DNA from: Rhodococcus pseudokoreensis
GTDB taxonomy: Bacteria; Actinomycetota; Actinomycetes; Mycobacteriales; Mycobacteriaceae
DNA length: 64,000 nucleotides
Assembly: GCF_017068395.1 (NCBI RefSeq)
Contig: NZ_CP070614.1
Location: forward strand, 404,865-468,864
Direction of reading: 5' to 3'
Shown here one piece after another: positions 1 through 13,939 of the stretch. The notes under the pieces are model-generated. The model saw only the letters and a program-made list of their open reading frames with translations, was not told where the DNA came from and did not search any database. The stretch's first letter is position 1. The number at the start of each line of letters is the position of its first letter. The translations under genes were made by a program, and so were the position numbers.

Positions 1-1
1 A

Positions 2-700
2 ACGCACGACATCATCGAAATTTGCCTGACACTCGATACTCCGCTGGAGTATTCGGCAGGACAGTACGCAGAACTACGACTGGCTGATGTCAACGGTCCA
101 CGTTCCTACTCCTTCGCCGACGCACCCTCGAACATCGATCGCCGGAGGGCTACTTTCTTCGTGCGCCACGTACCGGGCGGTGAGTTCACGGACTGGTTGT
201 TCTCCGCGGACAGGGTGGGAACAGACGTCAGCGTGGCTGGTCCCTTTGGCGACCTCTGGCTCCGTCCATCAGAATTGCCGATCTTGTGCGTCGCCGGCGG
301 AAGCGGACTGGCCCCGATCAAGGCACTGCTCGAAGAGGCCAATCGGCAAGGTTGCAGCCGCCAGGCGGTCTTCTTGTTCGGCGCGCGGGAACAGCAGGAT
401 CTGTACTGCTTGATGGAGGCAAATGCGATCAGCGAATCCTGGTCTGGTTCCTTCGCCTTTCATCCAGTGCTCTCGCAGGAGCCACCAAATTCTGCCTGGA
501 CTGGTGAACGAGGCTTGGTTACGAACGCCCTTTCGCGGTTGCCCGAAGAGTTCTTGCAATCGTGCGAGGTCTACGCGTGTGGCCCCCCCGTCATGGTCAA
601 CGCTTTGGAAGATGCTCTGCGAGAGGTGCGTACTGGCTCGCAGTACTTCCACGCAGATCGCTTCGTGACCCGCATTCCAGGTGCGGCACAGTCTGTCTGA
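2..700 (+). CDS. XylA/CymAb-like monooxygenase reductase, C-terminal part (partial at left edge)
   Basis: The open frame runs in from the window edge to a TGA at 698-700. It carries the FAD-binding part (RSYSFA), the signature VRHVPGGEFTDWLF, an intact NAD-binding GGSGLAP motif and the terminal CGPPVM motif of ferredoxin-NAD reductase-type electron-transfer proteins. It closely matches residues 129 onward of the complete protein at 28056-29231, so the missing part should hold a plant-type [2Fe-2S] domain. The family (XylA, CymAb) passes electrons from NADH to a membrane di-iron methyl hydroxylase such as the one at 19804-20937. Unlike the other copy, it keeps the glycine in the NAD motif and a normal short C-terminus (ADRFVTRIPGAAQSV). 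This may be the working copy. Family assignment is firm; the partner is inferred. Confidence 0.85.
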   Translation, partial: THDIIEICLTLDTPLEYSAGQYAELRLADVNGPRSYSFADAPSNIDRRRATFFVRHVPGGEFTDWLFSADRVGTDVSVAGPFGDLWLRPSELPILCVAGGSGLAPIKALLEEANRQGCSRQAVFLFGAREQQDLYCLMEANAISESWSGSFAFHPVLSQEPPNSAWTGERGLVTNALSRLPEEFLQSCEVYACGPPVMVNALEDALREVRTGSQYFHADRFVTRIPGAAQSV

Positions 701-1477: not shown

Positions 1478-1891
1478 ATGACCGACAAGTTGAAGTTGTT
1501 TTCGCAGGAGTGGTGTGACGCTGCACTCGAAGGGGTCAACGCGAACGTCGCGGTGTACGCGGGTTTCAAGGACCCTGCCACGTTCACCAACAAGATGGAG
1601 TTCGGAGTGATCGGCCGGGACGACGTGGCCTGCCATCTCGAATTCAAAGAGGGCAAGGTCGTCTCGTTTACGCCACGGACGTTCGACGAGAGTGAGCTGT
1701 GGCTGATCATCAACGGCAGCCTCGAGACCTGGCAGGCCGCCGCCGCGGGTAAGGAAGAAGGCGGAAAGCTACTGATGAAGGGGCAGATCAAGTTCGTCAA
1801 GGGGCCGATGTCCGCGGCGATCGAGAACGCGGGAGCACTCAACAACTTCCTGCTCACCTGGGGTCAGGTCCCCACCGACTGGGACGTCTGA
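1478..1891 (+). CDS. SCP2-like sterol/lipid carrier domain protein
   Basis: This 137-residue soluble protein has no signal peptide or membrane segment. Its pattern (amphipathic N-terminal helix, a central strand-rich part around residues 40-75, then GKLLMKGQIKFVKGP followed by a helix) fits the SCP2 sterol-carrier fold, which makes up most of the protein. SCP2 domains bind hydrophobic ligands such as acyl-CoAs, sterols or terpenoids in the cytosol. It opens a seven-gene same-strand operon with a second SCP2-like protein and five membrane-anchored helical proteins, next to a monooxygenase reductase gene. That suggests a role in holding or moving a hydrophobic growth substrate. The start is set by GGAGAT upstream of the ATG. 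Fold assignment is by pattern only; the ligand is unknown. Confidence 0.7.
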   Translation: MTDKLKLFSQEWCDAALEGVNANVAVYAGFKDPATFTNKMEFGVIGRDDVACHLEFKEGKVVSFTPRTFDESELWLIINGSLETWQAAAAGKEEGGKLLMKGQIKFVKGPMSAAIENAGALNNFLLTWGQVPTDWDV

Positions 1892-2000
1892 TCCCACGAA
1901 ACTCTCGCACGGGGCACGCGCCCGACCCCTCATCCGGGTGAGTCCTCCGTGCGAGACCGCACGAAACGCCGTCACCCCTGCTCTGAAAGGCCCACCCCCC

Positions 2001-2456
2001 ATGACCACTGTTGAATCCGGCACGTACCCCGTATCCGAGTACGACGGGCAGGAGGCGAATGGCGTCGCCAACATTGTCGGGATGCTGCTCGGGCAGAACC
2101 TCGAGAACTTTCCGTCGCGAATCAAGTTCGCACGCAAGATCGCTCGACCGGTCTCCATTATCAGCACGGACACCGATTCCGCGTGCACGATCGTGTTCGG
2201 CACCGACGAGGCGGTCGTCTACAACGATGTCGTCGGGAAACCAGCCGTGACCGTCATCGCCACCGTCGATCAGATCCTGGATGTATCACAGTTGCCGATG
2301 AAGGCCGGCGGGCTCATCCCGGTGGGCTTCTTCACCGGCCGGGGCATGACGGTCCTCGGTGCGATCCTCACACACAAGCTGGTCGTGAAGGGTCTGCTCA
2401 CCCACACCGTGACCGCGCTGCGCACCATCGCGTTGGTCTCGGTGATCGAATCATGA
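2001..2456 (+). CDS. Second SCP2-like small soluble protein
   Basis: A 151-residue protein without signal peptide. The middle (FARKIARPVSIISTDTDSACTI to VTVIATVDQILDVS) and the end (LVVKGLLTHTVTALRTI) match the layout of SCP2-type domains: strands, a hydrophobic helix, then a 'VKG' strand and a final helix. The ATG at 2001 is preceded by GAAAGG; an in-frame start at 1938 lies in a less protein-like stretch and was rejected. The stop overlaps the ATG of the next gene (ATGA at 2453), so it is translationally coupled to the first membrane-anchored protein. This coupling is the best hint that a cytosolic lipid carrier and an envelope component work together. Similarity to the first SCP2-like protein is weak, so this is not a recent duplication. 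Confidence 0.6.
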   Translation: MTTVESGTYPVSEYDGQEANGVANIVGMLLGQNLENFPSRIKFARKIARPVSIISTDTDSACTIVFGTDEAVVYNDVVGKPAVTVIATVDQILDVSQLPMKAGGLIPVGFFTGRGMTVLGAILTHKLVVKGLLTHTVTALRTIALVSVIES

Positions 2457-3106
2457 CCTCGCTCTCGGGCCGCAGCCGCCCGGCCAGCCACGCCTACGAT
2501 GACCAGGTGATGCAGGTCGAATTGCCCTATGCGGACGACGACGTCGTGCAGGGCGGGGAACCGCCTCGGGCGTCGAAGGCCACGAACATCGTCAGGGGGT
2601 TGCTCCTGCTCGCCCTGATCCCGGTCTCGGTGTTCTACCTGGGCCCGCGGATCTACAACCTGACCGCCACCCCCTACCGACTGGACCAGGCCGTGGTTTC
2701 CGCCGGCAACTACAACCCGGCGCTGGACAAGATCGTCGAGCACGAGAAGGTGACCCTGTCCGCGTTCGCGTCGCTGGAGAAGATGAAGACCGCGCTCGCG
2801 AGTGTTCTCGTCACCGATGCGACCGTCACCACCGAACTCCATACCTTGACCGGTCAGATCAGCGGCGATGTGCAGGCAACGCTCGATCAGGCCGGCGCGA
2901 ACGTGACCGATCTCATTGCCTCCCTTGACACTCTGACCACGCACATCAACTCGTTGCAGCCTCCCGTCGACGGCGCCACCGCGGCCCTCGCGGCCGACAG
3001 CGCCACGTTGGGGGCCATCCTCGACGACGCCCGTTCGACGGCGGCGAAGGTGCACAACGCCCGGGTCTCCGCGGAGGAGTCCGCGAACGACCTGTCAGGA
3101 AAATAG
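2453..3106 (+). CDS. Single-span membrane protein with long extracytoplasmic helical domain (1 of 5)
   Basis: A 217-residue protein with about 45 cytosolic residues, one transmembrane helix at roughly 46-64 (VRGLLLLALIPVSVFYLG), then about 150 residues rich in Ala, Leu, Thr, Asp and Gln with heptad-like spacing, expected to be a coiled coil or helical bundle outside the membrane. The first half of the longer open frame overlaps the previous gene and is not real; the ATGA overlap sets the start at 2453. I do not recognise a named family. The next four genes have the same design, which suggests paralogous subunits of one envelope complex. Unlike the other four it lacks the C-terminal Leu-Pro-x-Pro motif and ends in LSGK. 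Confidence 0.65.
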   Translation: MTSLSGRSRPASHAYDDQVMQVELPYADDDVVQGGEPPRASKATNIVRGLLLLALIPVSVFYLGPRIYNLTATPYRLDQAVVSAGNYNPALDKIVEHEKVTLSAFASLEKMKTALASVLVTDATVTTELHTLTGQISGDVQATLDQAGANVTDLIASLDTLTTHINSLQPPVDGATAALAADSATLGAILDDARSTAAKVHNARVSAEESANDLSGK

Positions 3107-3116
3107 GAGAAGTTCT

Positions 3117-3650
3117 GTGATTTTCTTCGGACGCCGCGGCGGTCCCGCCCGGATGGTTCTGGCGATCGTGGCGGTCGGTGTACTCGGTCTGCTCACGTTC
3201 GTGGTGTTCAACCTCAACACCCGCCTCGACAACCAGCAGCGCGCCAACGTGACGAGCATCGCCGCTTCCCAGGCCATCGTCGACGTCAACGACAAAGTGA
3301 CCGGCCAACTCCAGCAACTGACCGAGCTCACCCACACGGCACAAACCGCGCTCGATGCCACCTCCGCGCTCGGTCCACTGCTGACGAAGTTGGATGAGGC
3401 GATCGCCCCGGCGGCGGCGATGCTGGCCAGCAGCACCTCGGGTGCACAGATGACCAACGATCAGCTCACCAACATCCAGTCCATCCTCGGTGAGGTCCAG
3501 AACACCGTGCTCCCGTTGGTGTCCTCCGCGGAAGCGTTCGGGGAGCAAGGCAACCAGCTGCTGGTGATCGTGCAGGGGCTGGTGAGCGACCTGAAGGTCT
3601 CGGTCGAGGCGGCGAAGACGATCAACCAGATGCTTCCACTTCCCGGCTGA
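3117..3650 (+). CDS. Single-span membrane protein with helical domain (2 of 5)
   Basis: A 177-residue protein with a GTG start after AGGAGAAG. The cytosolic tail is short and positively charged (FFGRRGGPAR), a transmembrane helix spans about 12-32, and the extracytoplasmic part is Ala/Leu/Thr/Gln-rich with predicted long helices. It ends in NQMLPLPG. The Leu-Pro-x-Pro ending recurs in the following paralogues and could be a docking or assembly tag. The segment ALDATSALGPLLTKL resembles a 'LGPLL' segment in the fifth paralogue. No enzymatic motif is visible. Only 10 bases separate it from the previous gene, so it belongs to the same operon. Function unknown; a structural subunit of an uptake or envelope-spanning assembly is an inference. 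Confidence 0.65.
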   Translation: MIFFGRRGGPARMVLAIVAVGVLGLLTFVVFNLNTRLDNQQRANVTSIAASQAIVDVNDKVTGQLQQLTELTHTAQTALDATSALGPLLTKLDEAIAPAAAMLASSTSGAQMTNDQLTNIQSILGEVQNTVLPLVSSAEAFGEQGNQLLVIVQGLVSDLKVSVEAAKTINQMLPLPG

Positions 3651-3698
3651 GCACCCTTTCACCGTCGACGATCCGACACTACTTCCACTGGACGTGAT

Positions 3699-4406
3699 AT
3701 GCAGCAGCGCAACGATTTACCTCCCGACGCGTTCCCACCCCGAGGTGTGACCAAATATCAGCGATTCGATGTGCCGGCGGCGGCGCTGCCCTACCGAAAA
3801 GGCACCAAGCCGCATCGGCCGGATGTGCTGGTGCCCGCGATCCCCGACGCGACCGGATTTTCGGTAGCAACCGAGTGGCTGGGCCGCCTCGCCGCGGTCA
3901 TCGCCGTCGTCCTGTTCGCACTGGTGGTGGCCTCCATCCACAAGGGGCTGCAGGTACAACACAGCGCGCGCACCGTCGTGGACAACTTCCGCCTCACCAA
4001 CGACTTCTTCGCCCAACGCGCGGACCTGACCGCGCCCGCCACCGCCCGCAAACAACTCGACGAACTGACAGGAGTCTTGACCCAGCTCAACATTGCGACC
4101 GCGACCGACGTCGACCACCTCGACGCCCTCCTGCCGAACGCGCGCACGTTGCTCGCCGCCGGCCAAGGTGACACACAGATCGCCGGCCAGCTCGAGGGGG
4201 TCGCCACCACATTGCAGGGCTCGGCGGCATCCCTGCACCAGATATCGGCAGGCGCGAACACGACCGTGACCGGCGTCGACAACGAACTCACCCAGGCACT
4301 CGACCTGGTGAACCAGCTCAACGCGGAACTCACCCGCACGACGAACAAGCTCGCGCTCGTTCCCGCCACCGACGCCTTCATTCCTGCCCCCGGAGGGAAC
4401 CGATGA
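3699..4406 (+). CDS. Single-span membrane protein with helical domain (3 of 5)
   Basis: A 235-residue protein, the largest of the set. It has an unusual 60-residue Pro- and Arg-rich cytosolic tail (repeated 'FDVPAAALP'-like stretches), a transmembrane helix at about 62-80, and then a long helical extracytoplasmic region with many Leu at heptad-like spacing. It ends FIPAPGGNR, a variant of the Leu-Pro-x-Pro ending shared with its neighbours. The cytosolic tail could contact the SCP2-like proteins of the operon (speculative). Its stop overlaps the next ATG (ATGA at 4403). No known family recognised. Confidence 0.65.
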   Translation: MQQRNDLPPDAFPPRGVTKYQRFDVPAAALPYRKGTKPHRPDVLVPAIPDATGFSVATEWLGRLAAVIAVVLFALVVASIHKGLQVQHSARTVVDNFRLTNDFFAQRADLTAPATARKQLDELTGVLTQLNIATATDVDHLDALLPNARTLLAAGQGDTQIAGQLEGVATTLQGSAASLHQISAGANTTVTGVDNELTQALDLVNQLNAELTRTTNKLALVPATDAFIPAPGGNR

Positions 4407-5050
4407 TCACCAGAAAGTTGTGGACCGCGATCGTACTCGTGCTGGGTGCGGGGTCGGCGGTGGTTCTGTGCGCCCTCAACGGGTTCTTTCCCGCGCTGCG
4501 TGATGTGAGCGATCCGCTGGGGCGGCCGTCGAAACTCAGTCTCGAGCTGATCGATTCCGCAGGCCAATTCGACACCCTGACCGGGATTCTCGTCCCCAAG
4601 CACGCCCGGTTGGCCTCCGACATCCAGGCCCTGACGCCGCTCGCGAACGATCTCGAAGGACTCACCGACAAGGCCGGCGAACTCTCCGGTCAAGCCAAGA
4701 CACTGAACGCCTCCACCAGTACCGTCAGCGAGATCGCGGCGCCGCTGCCCGACCTTATCGTGAAGGTGACCGGTCGTTCCGACACCGCGAGCCCGACGGT
4801 GGCCGGATTGTCCACGGCGGTGGGATCGGTGACCACCCAGCTGGAGGCGATCAACCACGGACTGACCACCGTCCAGGGATCCCTCGGTGCGCTCGGCCCT
4901 AAAGCCTCCGCCATCTCTGCGACCCTCGCAATCGTTCGGGAAGAGGCCGCACACGTGCAGGAGTTCGGTCCCCTTCTCGCGGTAATCGGCCCCCCGGTCA
5001 ATGACCTGAACCTCCCCGCCCTCGGTGTCGCACCCGCACCGCCCTCATGA
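4403..5050 (+). CDS. Single-span membrane protein with helical domain (4 of 5)
   Basis: A 215-residue protein with an N-terminal transmembrane helix or uncleaved signal anchor at about 7-27, directly after a short basic tail (MITRK). The rest is a helical region rich in Ala, Leu, Ser and Thr. Near the C-terminus are FGPLLAVIGPPVNDL and the ending LPALGVAPAPPS, echoing the endings of the other paralogues. It starts inside the stop codon of the preceding gene, so the two are translationally coupled. No catalytic motif. The cysteine at about 23 is within the membrane helix and not in a convincing lipobox. Confidence 0.65.
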   Translation: MITRKLWTAIVLVLGAGSAVVLCALNGFFPALRDVSDPLGRPSKLSLELIDSAGQFDTLTGILVPKHARLASDIQALTPLANDLEGLTDKAGELSGQAKTLNASTSTVSEIAAPLPDLIVKVTGRSDTASPTVAGLSTAVGSVTTQLEAINHGLTTVQGSLGALGPKASAISATLAIVREEAAHVQEFGPLLAVIGPPVNDLNLPALGVAPAPPS

Positions 5051-5102
5051 CCGCCCGCACCGGCTTGTGGCCGACCACTGAGCGAGTGAAAGGCAGAACT
5101 TG

Positions 5103-5627
5103 ATGTTTCGGCTCTCCTGGGCGATCGCCCTGTCCTTTACCATTGCGGTTCTCGCTGGCATTCTGATCGTGACGCGCGATCTGAGTATCTCGAACGACAT
5201 CTTCAAAGACGGAGTGGCACAAGCGAAGATCGTCGATGGCACCACCGACCAGGCACTGGACGGTGCGCAGCAGTTGCCCCCCGCTGATCAGGCCCTCCAC
5301 GAGGGTTTACCCCAGGTGGTGGGGGTACTCGACTCCCTCGCTAGAGCCGACCAGACTCTGGGTTCGCTCGGTGGTCACTTGCAGTCTCTGGGGGACGCCT
5401 TGAAGTCCGCGGACGCCCCGCTCGGCGGGATCATCGATGCCGGCCAGTCAGCGACCGATCAGGCGAACGCGGCGGCCGCCCCGGCGGCGGAGATCGTGAA
5501 CACGCTGTCCGCGGCTGATACGAAGGTTCAAGCCTTGGGCCCGTTGCTCGACCAGTCCCTCGCCCTCAGCCAGACGATTGACTCGAAACTGCGCATCGCG
5601 CTCCCCCTGCCGAAAGTAGGAAACTGA
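5103..5627 (+). CDS. Single-span membrane protein with helical domain (5 of 5)
   Basis: A 174-residue protein with a transmembrane anchor at about 5-24 and then an Ala/Leu/Asp/Gln-rich helical region with LGGHLQSLGDALKSAD and ALGPLLDQSLALS. It ends LRIALPLPKVGN, the Leu-Pro-x-Pro ending of the set. ATG 5103 is preceded by AAAGG at a normal distance; a TTG three bases upstream is the alternative. It is the last gene of the operon; the following DNA holds no recognisable gene before an IS630 element. Same unknown function as its four relatives. Confidence 0.65.
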   Translation: MFRLSWAIALSFTIAVLAGILIVTRDLSISNDIFKDGVAQAKIVDGTTDQALDGAQQLPPADQALHEGLPQVVGVLDSLARADQTLGSLGGHLQSLGDALKSADAPLGGIIDAGQSATDQANAAAAPAAEIVNTLSAADTKVQALGPLLDQSLALSQTIDSKLRIALPLPKVGN

Positions 5628-9147: not shown

Positions 9148-10067
9148 CCGACGTTGCCGCCGCGGTCGACTCCTATCTCGCCATGCGTCGCGGTGTGGGC
9201 TTCGCGCTCGTCGATGCCGGATCGTTGTTGCCGGACTTCGTCGGCTACCTGCACCACAACGGCGCTGAACATGTCAGCACCGAACTGGCCGTCGCATGGG
9301 CAATCCAGCCCGTGAACGCCGGGCCGATCTGGTGGCGTCAACGGCTGGGGATCGTGCGCGGCTTCGCCGAGTACCTGCGCACCATCGATCCGGACACCGA
9401 GGTGCCGCCACGTGACCTGCTACCGGCACGGCAGCAGCGGGTTGCGCCGTACTTGTATTCCGCCGCCGACATCGCGGCGCTGATGGCGGCCGCCCGGGCC
9501 CTGAACCCGCCGCTGCGTGCCGCGACCTACGAGACGTTCATCGGGTTGCTTTCGGTCACCGGCCTACGACTGGGAGAAGCTCTCGCGCTCAACCGCGACG
9601 ACCTGGACAAGAAGCGATTACTGCTCATTGTCCGGCACGCCAAGCGAGGAGGCCGAAATATACCTTTGCACGAGACGACCTTTCGTGCCCTGCAACACTA
9701 TTTCGAGGGTGTCGACCGTTGCTTCCCGCAACCCGTGTCACCGTCGGTATTCGTTTCGATCCGAGGCACTCGGATGAACAAAGACTCGATACACGCGACG
9801 TTTCCCGCCCTGATCGACAGGGCCGGGCTGACCGGGCGCGGACAACGACCCCGGCCCCGGATTCACGACCTCCGTCATACCTTCGCGGTTCGCCAACTGG
9901 TCGACTGGCACCAACAGCACGCCGACGTCGATGCCCGAATACCACTGCTGTCGGCTGTTCTCGGGCACAGTGATCCCGCATCCACGTACTGGTATCTCGA
10001 AGCCGCACCCGAACTCTTCGCCATCGTCGGAAGGCGCCTCGAAGACTTCCTCGGAGAACTGCCATGA
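9144..10067 (+). CDS. RIT tyrosine recombinase B
   Basis: A 307-residue tyrosine recombinase. Catalytic landmarks are VTGLRLGEALALNRDDL (Arg I), RIHDLRHTFAVRQL (His-x-x-Arg), LLSAVLGHSDPASTYWYLEA (His/Trp position and the tyrosine). It starts within the stop codon of A and ends overlapping the start of C, a translational coupling typical of RIT trios. It is the shortest of the three. Confidence 0.9.
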   Translation: MTDVAAAVDSYLAMRRGVGFALVDAGSLLPDFVGYLHHNGAEHVSTELAVAWAIQPVNAGPIWWRQRLGIVRGFAEYLRTIDPDTEVPPRDLLPARQQRVAPYLYSAADIAALMAAARALNPPLRAATYETFIGLLSVTGLRLGEALALNRDDLDKKRLLLIVRHAKRGGRNIPLHETTFRALQHYFEGVDRCFPQPVSPSVFVSIRGTRMNKDSIHATFPALIDRAGLTGRGQRPRPRIHDLRHTFAVRQLVDWHQQHADVDARIPLLSAVLGHSDPASTYWYLEAAPELFAIVGRRLEDFLGELP

Positions 10068-12789: not shown

Positions 12790-13025
12790 TCTCCGGAGTT
12801 GCTTGACCTCGTAGCTCAACGCATCGTCCGCAACGGTCGACGGTGCCTGCCCCGGACGTCGTCCGCCTCAATCCAGTTCCGCAACGTCGCGGGCTTGATA
12901 TCGAGCAACTCGCCGACATGACGTCGAGCGCCAATCTTCGACCCACCGTGCTCACCGAGTCGGTCCCGATACATACGCACGGCCCGCTCACGGGTCTCGG
13001 CGTCGTACTTCTTGGGTGTAGACAT
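12790..13025 (-). pseudogene. IS3-type orfA fragment
   Basis: Minus-strand start MSTPKKYDAETRERAVRMYRD followed by HVGELLDIKPATLRNWIEAD is the typical N-terminus of an IS3 orfA. A few residues like SYEVKQLRR follow in another frame, after which the sequence becomes the PucR-like remnant. No orfB is linked to it. It differs from the orfA at 11876-12271, so it is a separate IS. Confidence 0.7.
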
Positions 13026-13108
13026 GGAAACATTCTCCTTGTTGAATCAGGAGTCTCCGGCTCGCCCAGTACGATTCAGTCGTGCGAGTGCGAGTGCGCG
13101 TTCATCGG

Positions 13109-13723
13109 TCAGGCATCCCCGATACTTGCGTCGATCATCGCGTGCGTGCCGCATTCGCCGAGACCGACAACTTGGGCCCGGGGAAAGGGGTATCCATTCC
13201 GCGGTTGCTCAGCCCTCGCTCGAAGACCTCGGCGTTGTCGGTGGCGTCGGGGACGTCGATCTGAACTCCGTCGATGGCCATCAACCGCAGTTCCCGGAGC
13301 CATGCGCGGGGGGTTCTGGGCCGGCGAGGGGTTCGGCGATGCGCGCATAGAGTTCGCGGAGTGGTGCCTCGCCGAGCCGGGCGCGCGCTTTGCACAATGC
13401 GGACGAGGTTGGCACGTGTCAGTCGTCGTCCCATGATCGCAGGAACCGCAGCCCGTCGACGAGCTTGCGCATCACTTCCTCGTACGCATCGCCCGTAGAA
13501 CAATGTCATGGCCAGCACGAAGTAGATGACCACTCGCGCCCGGTAGCAGCCAGCGGCGCGGCTCGACCCTCCCGGTCTCGGCCAGCACCTCGTCGACCAG
13601 ATCGCGGTGGACGATGCGGGTAAGGACACCGAGGCCGATACGGTCTGTCAACCGCCCACCATCGCCTGTTTCTCGAATGCCCGCCACGGATGCAGGGTAG
13701 TCGCGAATTATACTGCTGCACAA
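13109..13723 (-). pseudogene. IS4-family transposase remnant
   Basis: Minus-strand pieces in several frames give RLTDRIGLGVLTRIVHRDLVDEVLAETGRVE (start), RARVVIYFVLAMTLFYG, and AWLRELRLMAIDGVQIDVPDATDNAEVFERG with the first catalytic aspartate of IS4-type DDE transposases. The second and third catalytic motifs are missing: the element is both frameshifted and cut at about 13110. Confidence 0.7.
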
Positions 13724-13939
13724 TAATTATAGCGTCGACTCTGGGACACGAGCTCGGGGTGGGGGAGCGAATCATCCTCGCGGAATCGGGCGACTTTCCG
13801 TGATCATCGAGTGGGGATGGGACGACATGCTAACGGTACCGCCACGGCACGAGATGACACTTCCTCGTTATCTACCAGTCGATTCCGACCGCAGACTCGG
13901 TGTTGCACTCACGGAATCGAACTACCGACTTGCTGCCGA

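Follow-up and report, generated by a model that had tools for sequence, protein, structure and literature searches.

The window analysed here is a stretch of 64,000 nucleotides from Rhodococcus pseudokoreensis (RefSeq assembly GCF_017068395.1, contig NZ_CP070614.1, positions 404,865 to 468,864), which forms the end of a contig of 468,864 bases in a genome of 9.87 Mb. In a DNA search of plasmid records, its near relatives were Rhodococcus plasmids. Near its start the window contains an operon of seven genes on the forward strand (positions 1478-5627), named A to G in the following. It is preceded by the end of an oxygenase reductase gene:

1..700, + strand: oxygenase reductase gene, 3' part; the gene begins 386 bases before the window (full open reading frame L017:18480-19565)
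1478..1891, + strand: A, SCP2 protein of 137 residues, above the cut-off of PF02036
2001..2456, + strand: B, SCP2-fold protein of 151 residues
2453..3106, + strand: C, single-span coiled-coil membrane protein of 217 residues, no family
3117..3650, + strand: D, single-span coiled-coil membrane protein of 177 residues, conserved C-terminus LPLPG
3699..4406, + strand: E, single-span coiled-coil membrane protein of 235 residues, longer N-terminal tail
4403..5050, + strand: F, single-span coiled-coil membrane protein of 215 residues
5103..5627, + strand: G, single-span coiled-coil membrane protein of 174 residues

Position 2001 for B and the ATG at 5103 for G are the most likely starts. The gaps between the genes from A to G measure 109, -4, 10, 48, -4 and 52 bp, which agrees with the tight packing described in an initial annotation of this DNA. 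The adjoining reductase gene was also recognised there. Its product matches NAD_binding_1 (E 8.1e-18), its top NCBIfam match, BenC, lies under the cut-off of that model, and 777 bp separate the gene from A. Further upstream, outside the window, lie genes for an aldehyde dehydrogenase, an alcohol dehydrogenase and a XylM/CymAa-like membrane hydroxylase, all three identified by eye from their translations. Distant homologues that possess the genes also keep the order A-G. The ratio of non-synonymous to synonymous substitution rates (dN/dS) against seven relatives is 0.10-0.39 per gene where computable; one comparison of G was saturated, C of Gordonia CWB2 was excluded and A is missing in strain P23. 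The conserved order and these ratios show that the operon is no chance arrangement and is under purifying selection.

A is a member of the SCP2 family. It reaches 22.1 bits against PF02036 (cut-off 21.3), and its profile matches the SCP2 chains 1wfr, 2cx7 and 4jgx. PF02036 is found by sequence in only one of 35 members of B (E 0.036), and B of the window is not above the cut-off. An AlphaFold model of B matches SCP2 structures, however, and assigns the protein to the SCP2 fold. The two small SCP2-like proteins of the initial annotation are thus confirmed, B by the fold of a model and not by a Pfam match. Further small SCP2 genes adjoin Rieske dioxygenases and a cytochrome P450 (L116:6575-6964 and 9209-9543, L006:6603-6998, L015:8506-8916), which looks as if SCP2 carriers were common partners of oxygenases in Rhodococcus.

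Each of the proteins C-G has a single hydrophobic segment towards its N-terminus (C 46-64, D 13-31, E 62-80, F 6-24, G 6-24), as had been proposed. Behind this segment the hydrophobicity has a period of 3.52 in C, 3.48 in D, 3.46 in E, 3.48 in F and 3.48 in G. The periodicity peak was reached in 9 of 500 shuffled sequences for E and in none of 500 for each of the other four. Since these periods correspond to a heptad, the proteins contain a coiled-coil repeat. An AlphaFold model of F has helices at residues 4-26, 42-112 and 115-201 (pLDDT 71.9); with a pTM of 0.25 it was used for secondary structure only. In D, F and G the helical domain is expected outside the cell, because a single N-terminal span follows a short cytosolic tail, a topology predicted from sequence. 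The Leu-Pro-x-Pro ending assigned earlier to four of the five proteins is general in two of them: [LI]PxP occurs within the last 30 residues in 11 of 11 members of D and 10 of 11 of E, but in only 6 of 43 of F, 1 of 11 of G and 0 of 11 of C. D ends in LPLPG, or LPLPD in genome G991, and the final residues of C and D are strikingly conserved. A role of D as a sortase substrate (LPXTG) was rejected, since its sequence stops at LPLPG, its one hydrophobic segment lies at the N-terminus, and neither a hydrophobic segment nor a basic tail follows the motif.

No known family accommodates C-G, so that the proposal withstood one of its own refuting conditions, matches of the five proteins to unrelated families. 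Searches of Pfam and NCBIfam gave best E-values of 0.003-0.019 for the proteins of the window, with scores that all fall far short of the cut-offs, and E had no match at all. Matches of sequences to the PDB were obtained for F (designed coiled-coil barrels and tropomyosin), E (designed barrels), C (viral coiled coils, E 0.037) and G (one match at 0.15), and none for D; they are attributed to the common heptad pattern and not to kinship. Foldseek with the low-confidence model of F found no PDB chain. The five proteins had been called paralogous, which the comparison of profiles does not confirm. Profiles were compared with hhalign in ten pairs, and then together with reversed controls in two comparisons. 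Only E-F (61% against 22% and 30% against 15%) and, weakly, F-G (8 against 1 and 9 against 1) exceed the reversed control, and C-D and C-F fall under it.

As hypothetical genes, the set has been published before. In R. opacus 1CP, styABCD is induced by styrene together with two transporters and several hypothetical membrane proteins (PMC13101518). According to the parts of that report accessible to us, the set of seven hypothetical proteins of 1CP closely resembles a set from the styrene cluster of G. rubripertincta CWB2, is induced in both strains and contains five proteins with a likely transmembrane section; the authors call for more research. Both sets are orthologous to A-G. In the same parts no family, SCP2 assignment, mechanism, replacement by MCE genes or wider distribution is given, and the accessible portion of PMC8552685 does not mention the set. 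A literature search that covered few subscription journals found nothing nearer. The genes themselves were thus already on record as induced by styrene; their make-up as such matches no system described in the papers found.

By DNA the operon was detected in 12 of 72,556 plasmid records; by protein, F was found in 17 and B in 18 plasmid records. F is present in 8 of 28 genomes of the genus, including our own. Among 397 genomes of the order, with the few best candidates per genome scored, it is credible only in our genome, besides two weak matches. Of the 8000 candidates scored in a database search, 57 proteins matched F, and those with names belong to Rhodococcus, Nocardia, Gordonia and Hoyosella. 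A weak match of the F profile in G464 (E 7.6e-4) falls inside an MCE gene, and another in G108 was discarded as it reads by eye like a Pip/YhgE-type helical-repeat protein; G338 gave a weak match as well. The cassette is variable in A, which is truncated in RHA1 pRHL2 (L004), fragmented in L010 and absent in P23 (L014). Locus L027 carries frame-shifts. A second copy in our own genome (L018) has another SCP2 gene in place of A and lies near genes for a P450, a ferredoxin reductase, an aldehyde dehydrogenase and a protein of the PorA family. The latter (PF11271, L018:16957-17988, - strand) is one of four such genes in the genome, and it is no general partner, because none was seen beside the other cassette loci scanned. 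One genome of the genus (G406) has five copies of F, so that the cassette can multiply within one strain.

Several loci have a gene for a four-span membrane protein with two tandem repeats just upstream of A (L004:10656-11660, L012:10042-10950, L016:10261-11274 and, in part, L009:9253-9738). Fragments occur in L024, none in our own genome, and no Pfam family is above the cut-off. This protein is a possible, optional eighth component; as a general partner it was dismissed, being present at some clusters only.

To relate the operon to catabolic genes, 24 C-G loci were opened, with the plasmid records H3, H4, H6 and H7 (DNA search) and H22 (protein search) set aside. An initial oxygenase was found near 16 of 22 assessable loci, in five types and a weaker sixth. 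At the window it is the XylM-like hydroxylase, identified by eye, and at our second copy a P450 at a distance of 6.7 kb. Rieske dioxygenases of one cluster type occur in S2-17, B4 and WAY2 (twice), styAB in R. opacus 1CP, R. jostii NBRC 16295 and Gordonia CWB2, and P450s in TG-1, P23, VOC-14 and JCM 9791. In R. opacus ATCC 51881 (L023), genes for a diiron monooxygenase with a Rieske ferredoxin and a reductase immediately precede A. JS3073, the weakest case, has a luciferase-like monooxygenase with a flavin reductase. In G991 all genes A-G follow the oxidoreductase of an iso-type cluster, named from its IsoF-like reductase, the gene order and PMC7355492, on a contig of 5.17 Mb. The two loci outside the 22 are L026, whose contig ends before styA and which contains styC-like and ABC genes, and L028, a contig of 3.9 kb cut within D. 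The proposed link to hydrocarbon catabolism is therefore retained, although it is not specific to XylM/CymAa hydroxylases.

As a control, three stretches of such plasmids, each 50 kb long, were scored for positions with an oxygenase at a distance of 10 kb or less; the shares were 29%, 0% and 75%, with a mean of 35%. A naive binomial calculation for 16 of 22 gives 0.0003. We take the excess as moderate, because the loci are related, the flanks vary and the sampling is non-random; the variety of oxygenases weighs more than the numbers. This density of oxygenases would also suit a cassette that rides as a passenger on catabolic plasmids with no link to hydrocarbon use, as would six loci at which no oxygenase was recognised (RHA1 pRHL2, RHA1 pRHL1, L021, L022, L024 and G419; apart from pRHL2, only some of their reading frames were scanned). 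The pRHL2 locus has lower-pathway genes only; L022 and L024 each contain a PhyH-type gene (in L024 identified by eye), which was left out of the oxygenase count. A mere passenger is highly improbable, however, given the position in G991, beside the iso-type cluster and on a contig of 5.17 Mb, the maintenance by selection and the induction together with the sty genes (PMC13101518).

A clue to the function of C-G comes from clusters in which other genes take their place. Twelve B-bearing genomes outside the order were opened. Three of them (G464, G967 and G969) carry A and B in the vicinity of styAB, and an oxidoreductase and a glutamate-cysteine ligase encoded there are related to their CWB2 counterparts; the cluster of G464 additionally encodes a CoA transferase, an SDR protein and two GSTs. 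In all three, genes for two MlaE permeases, an ABC ATPase, six MCE proteins and an MMPL protein begin 31-40 bp past the matched end of styB on the same strand. This run was identified by tblastn in all three genomes and by Pfam for G464. The styrene cluster of Gordonia CWB2 keeps A and B with styAB and has C-G in place of the MCE genes. L094:6356-18972 with L087 (G464), and likewise the runs of G967 and G969, thus hold a complete MCE importer and an MMPL gene in one run with styAB, apparently an MCE system linked to styrene. In G991, the genome with all of A-G, no MCE gene lies within 39 kb, and YrbE, Mce or MMPL queries gave no match in the fetched flanks of the 24 C-G loci (26 stretches and the window; the positive control was found at 6 of 7 loci). 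The ATPase query gave matches in L008, L014, L025 and L026, all of them to other ABC ATPases. Another MCE set lies within about 13 kb of B in G913, and in G432, G454 and G486 B occurs with neither A nor C-G nearby. In the tree of B, whose backbone is not resolved, the MCE-linked proteins form one clade and the proteins linked to C-G need two changes. Some B homologues outside the order adjoin a LeuA-type (2-isopropylmalate synthase-like) gene (L088:7136-8803, L090:6480-8135), with similar matches in L091 and L092.

MCE systems of Actinobacteria are importers with hydrophobic cargo. They comprise YrbE/MlaE permeases, an ABC ATPase and six MlaD/Mce proteins, and they likewise contain several unlike single-span proteins with long helical ectodomains per operon. 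C-G share with them the N-terminal span and the helical ectodomain (in F by model) and occupy the same slot of styrene clusters. A and B thus have one of two companions, C-G or a complete importer of hydrophobic molecules, which is most simply explained if C-G perform the importer's task. The operon itself is not an MCE system, as it has no MCE domain, permease or ATPase; it also has five subunits instead of six. The iso cluster of Mycobacterium AT1 is reported to encode MCE family proteins too (PMC12917321).

The common layout raises the question whether C-G are strongly diverged MCE proteins that have lost the MCE domain, a reduced variant of the system. Weak matches would fit: G to an NCBIfam MCE model (E 0.0033, 16.7 bits against a cut-off of 140.5), C to Mce4_CUP1 (E 0.11) and 9 of 41 members of F to the same family (best 0.0038). 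Coiled-coil families match the F members better (best E 0.00018), and in a comparison of shallow profiles with the MCE proteins of our genome and the styrene-linked ones, the best real value was 30.4% and the best reversed one 37.4%. Homology of C-G to MCE proteins is not supported by this comparison, and we regard such a descent as improbable.

We consider it slightly favoured that the operon is a horizontally moving accessory of hydrocarbon catabolism, in which C-G convey the substrate through the envelope like an MCE importer and A and B hand it to the oxygenase. The operon would supply a small, poorly soluble arene, alkene or terpene. C-G might assemble into a coiled-coil structure, anchored in the membrane, by which this substrate is carried or conducted through the cell envelope, as the MCE importer would do in sister clusters; transport by C-G may be downhill, in the direction of the oxygenase, or depend on a partner whose gene lies elsewhere. 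On the inner face, A and B would pick up the substrate and make it available to the oxygenase. A precedent is UbiJ, an SCP2 protein thought to present the substrate of the ubiquinone pathway to the ubiquinone hydroxylases; its identity to the SCP2 proteins here is 16-18%, and no UbiK- or UbiB-like partner was noticed in the operon by inspection. The initial annotation had suggested an envelope apparatus that brings a hydrophobic substrate to cytosolic carriers. This is still the best-supported reading and has gained the interchange with MCE genes; the direction (import rather than export or scaffolding), the assembly of C-G into one complex and the hand-over to the oxygenase are what we infer from it.

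Several observations weigh against this reading. The interchange rests on three related genomes, and the 15-33 kb read around A and B in G471, G501, G1071 and G1055 contain no C-G and no MCE genes. PF02470, the MlaD/MCE domain, is absent from C-G at E-values up to 1 and present in 6 of 6 MCE proteins of G464; in the comparison of profiles C-G do not rise above the reversed controls, and no YrbE/MlaE permease or ABC ATPase is encoded in the operon, although a permease may lie elsewhere in the genome. The six loci with no recognised oxygenase and the variable rate in the control stretches count here as well. Finally, C-G occur with no A or B nearby in G419, and RHA1 pRHL3 (L016) has A and B without C-G, beside a P450.

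The same genes could serve tolerance. C-G might stabilise the envelope or help to expel toxic hydrocarbons and epoxides, while A and B would act as a cytosolic buffer for free hydrophobic compounds. This would suit the toxicity of styrene and of its oxide as well as induction by the substrate, and an ABC exporter-like pair lies just upstream of the cassette in 1CP, L025 and L026. These are, however, only three of the loci scanned, and the MCE systems found in the same slot are importers in Actinobacteria; we hold a role in export to be unlikely. Rather unlikely, too, is a scaffold, in which C-G would anchor oxygenase, reductase and SCP2 carriers as a metabolon at the place of substrate partitioning into the membrane, and nothing would cross the envelope. 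Coiled coils often serve as scaffolds, and SCP2 genes adjoin oxygenases also without C-G (L116, L006). Against this stand the expected outside position of the helical domain in D, F and G and the replacement by MCE genes, which points to the envelope.

With import as the preferred reading, C-G could tentatively be seen as a new conduit or shuttle for small volatile hydrocarbons, a coiled-coil device without ATPase that evolved independently of MCE proteins, is exchangeable with them and, with its two SCP2 carriers, was plugged into many oxygenase pathways by horizontal transfer. The StyE-type styrene transporters of Pseudomonas (cited in PMC13101518) are likewise encoded by a transport gene linked to styrene catabolism; they are set apart from the single-span proteins C-G, without direct comparison, as no StyE-like membrane protein is encoded in the operon. 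An add-on to the mycolic envelope was rejected as an explanation of C-G: Emb (PF04602) was present in all six C-G genomes tested within the genus and in none of six B-bearing genomes outside the order, yet G991 has the full set A-G and no Emb.

To our knowledge, the uptake of oily compounds such as styrene, p-cymene and isoprene by actinobacteria is poorly known, and the cassette may be an unrecognised way of feeding them to pollutant-degrading enzymes. If so, a cassette that pairs with several types of oxygenase and swaps with an MCE importer would make the uptake step genetically testable. It could also help to obtain better biocatalysts and offer an independent look at the role of the long MCE helices.

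Downstream of the operon, broken transposase-like reading frames (window:6194-7296, - strand) resemble by eye two identical upstream copies (L017:11802-12548 and 12982-13728). They are followed by three successive reading frames of 396, 307 and 329 residues (window:7957-11053, + strand). The first of them looks like a tyrosine recombinase, and L017 has a group of similar appearance.

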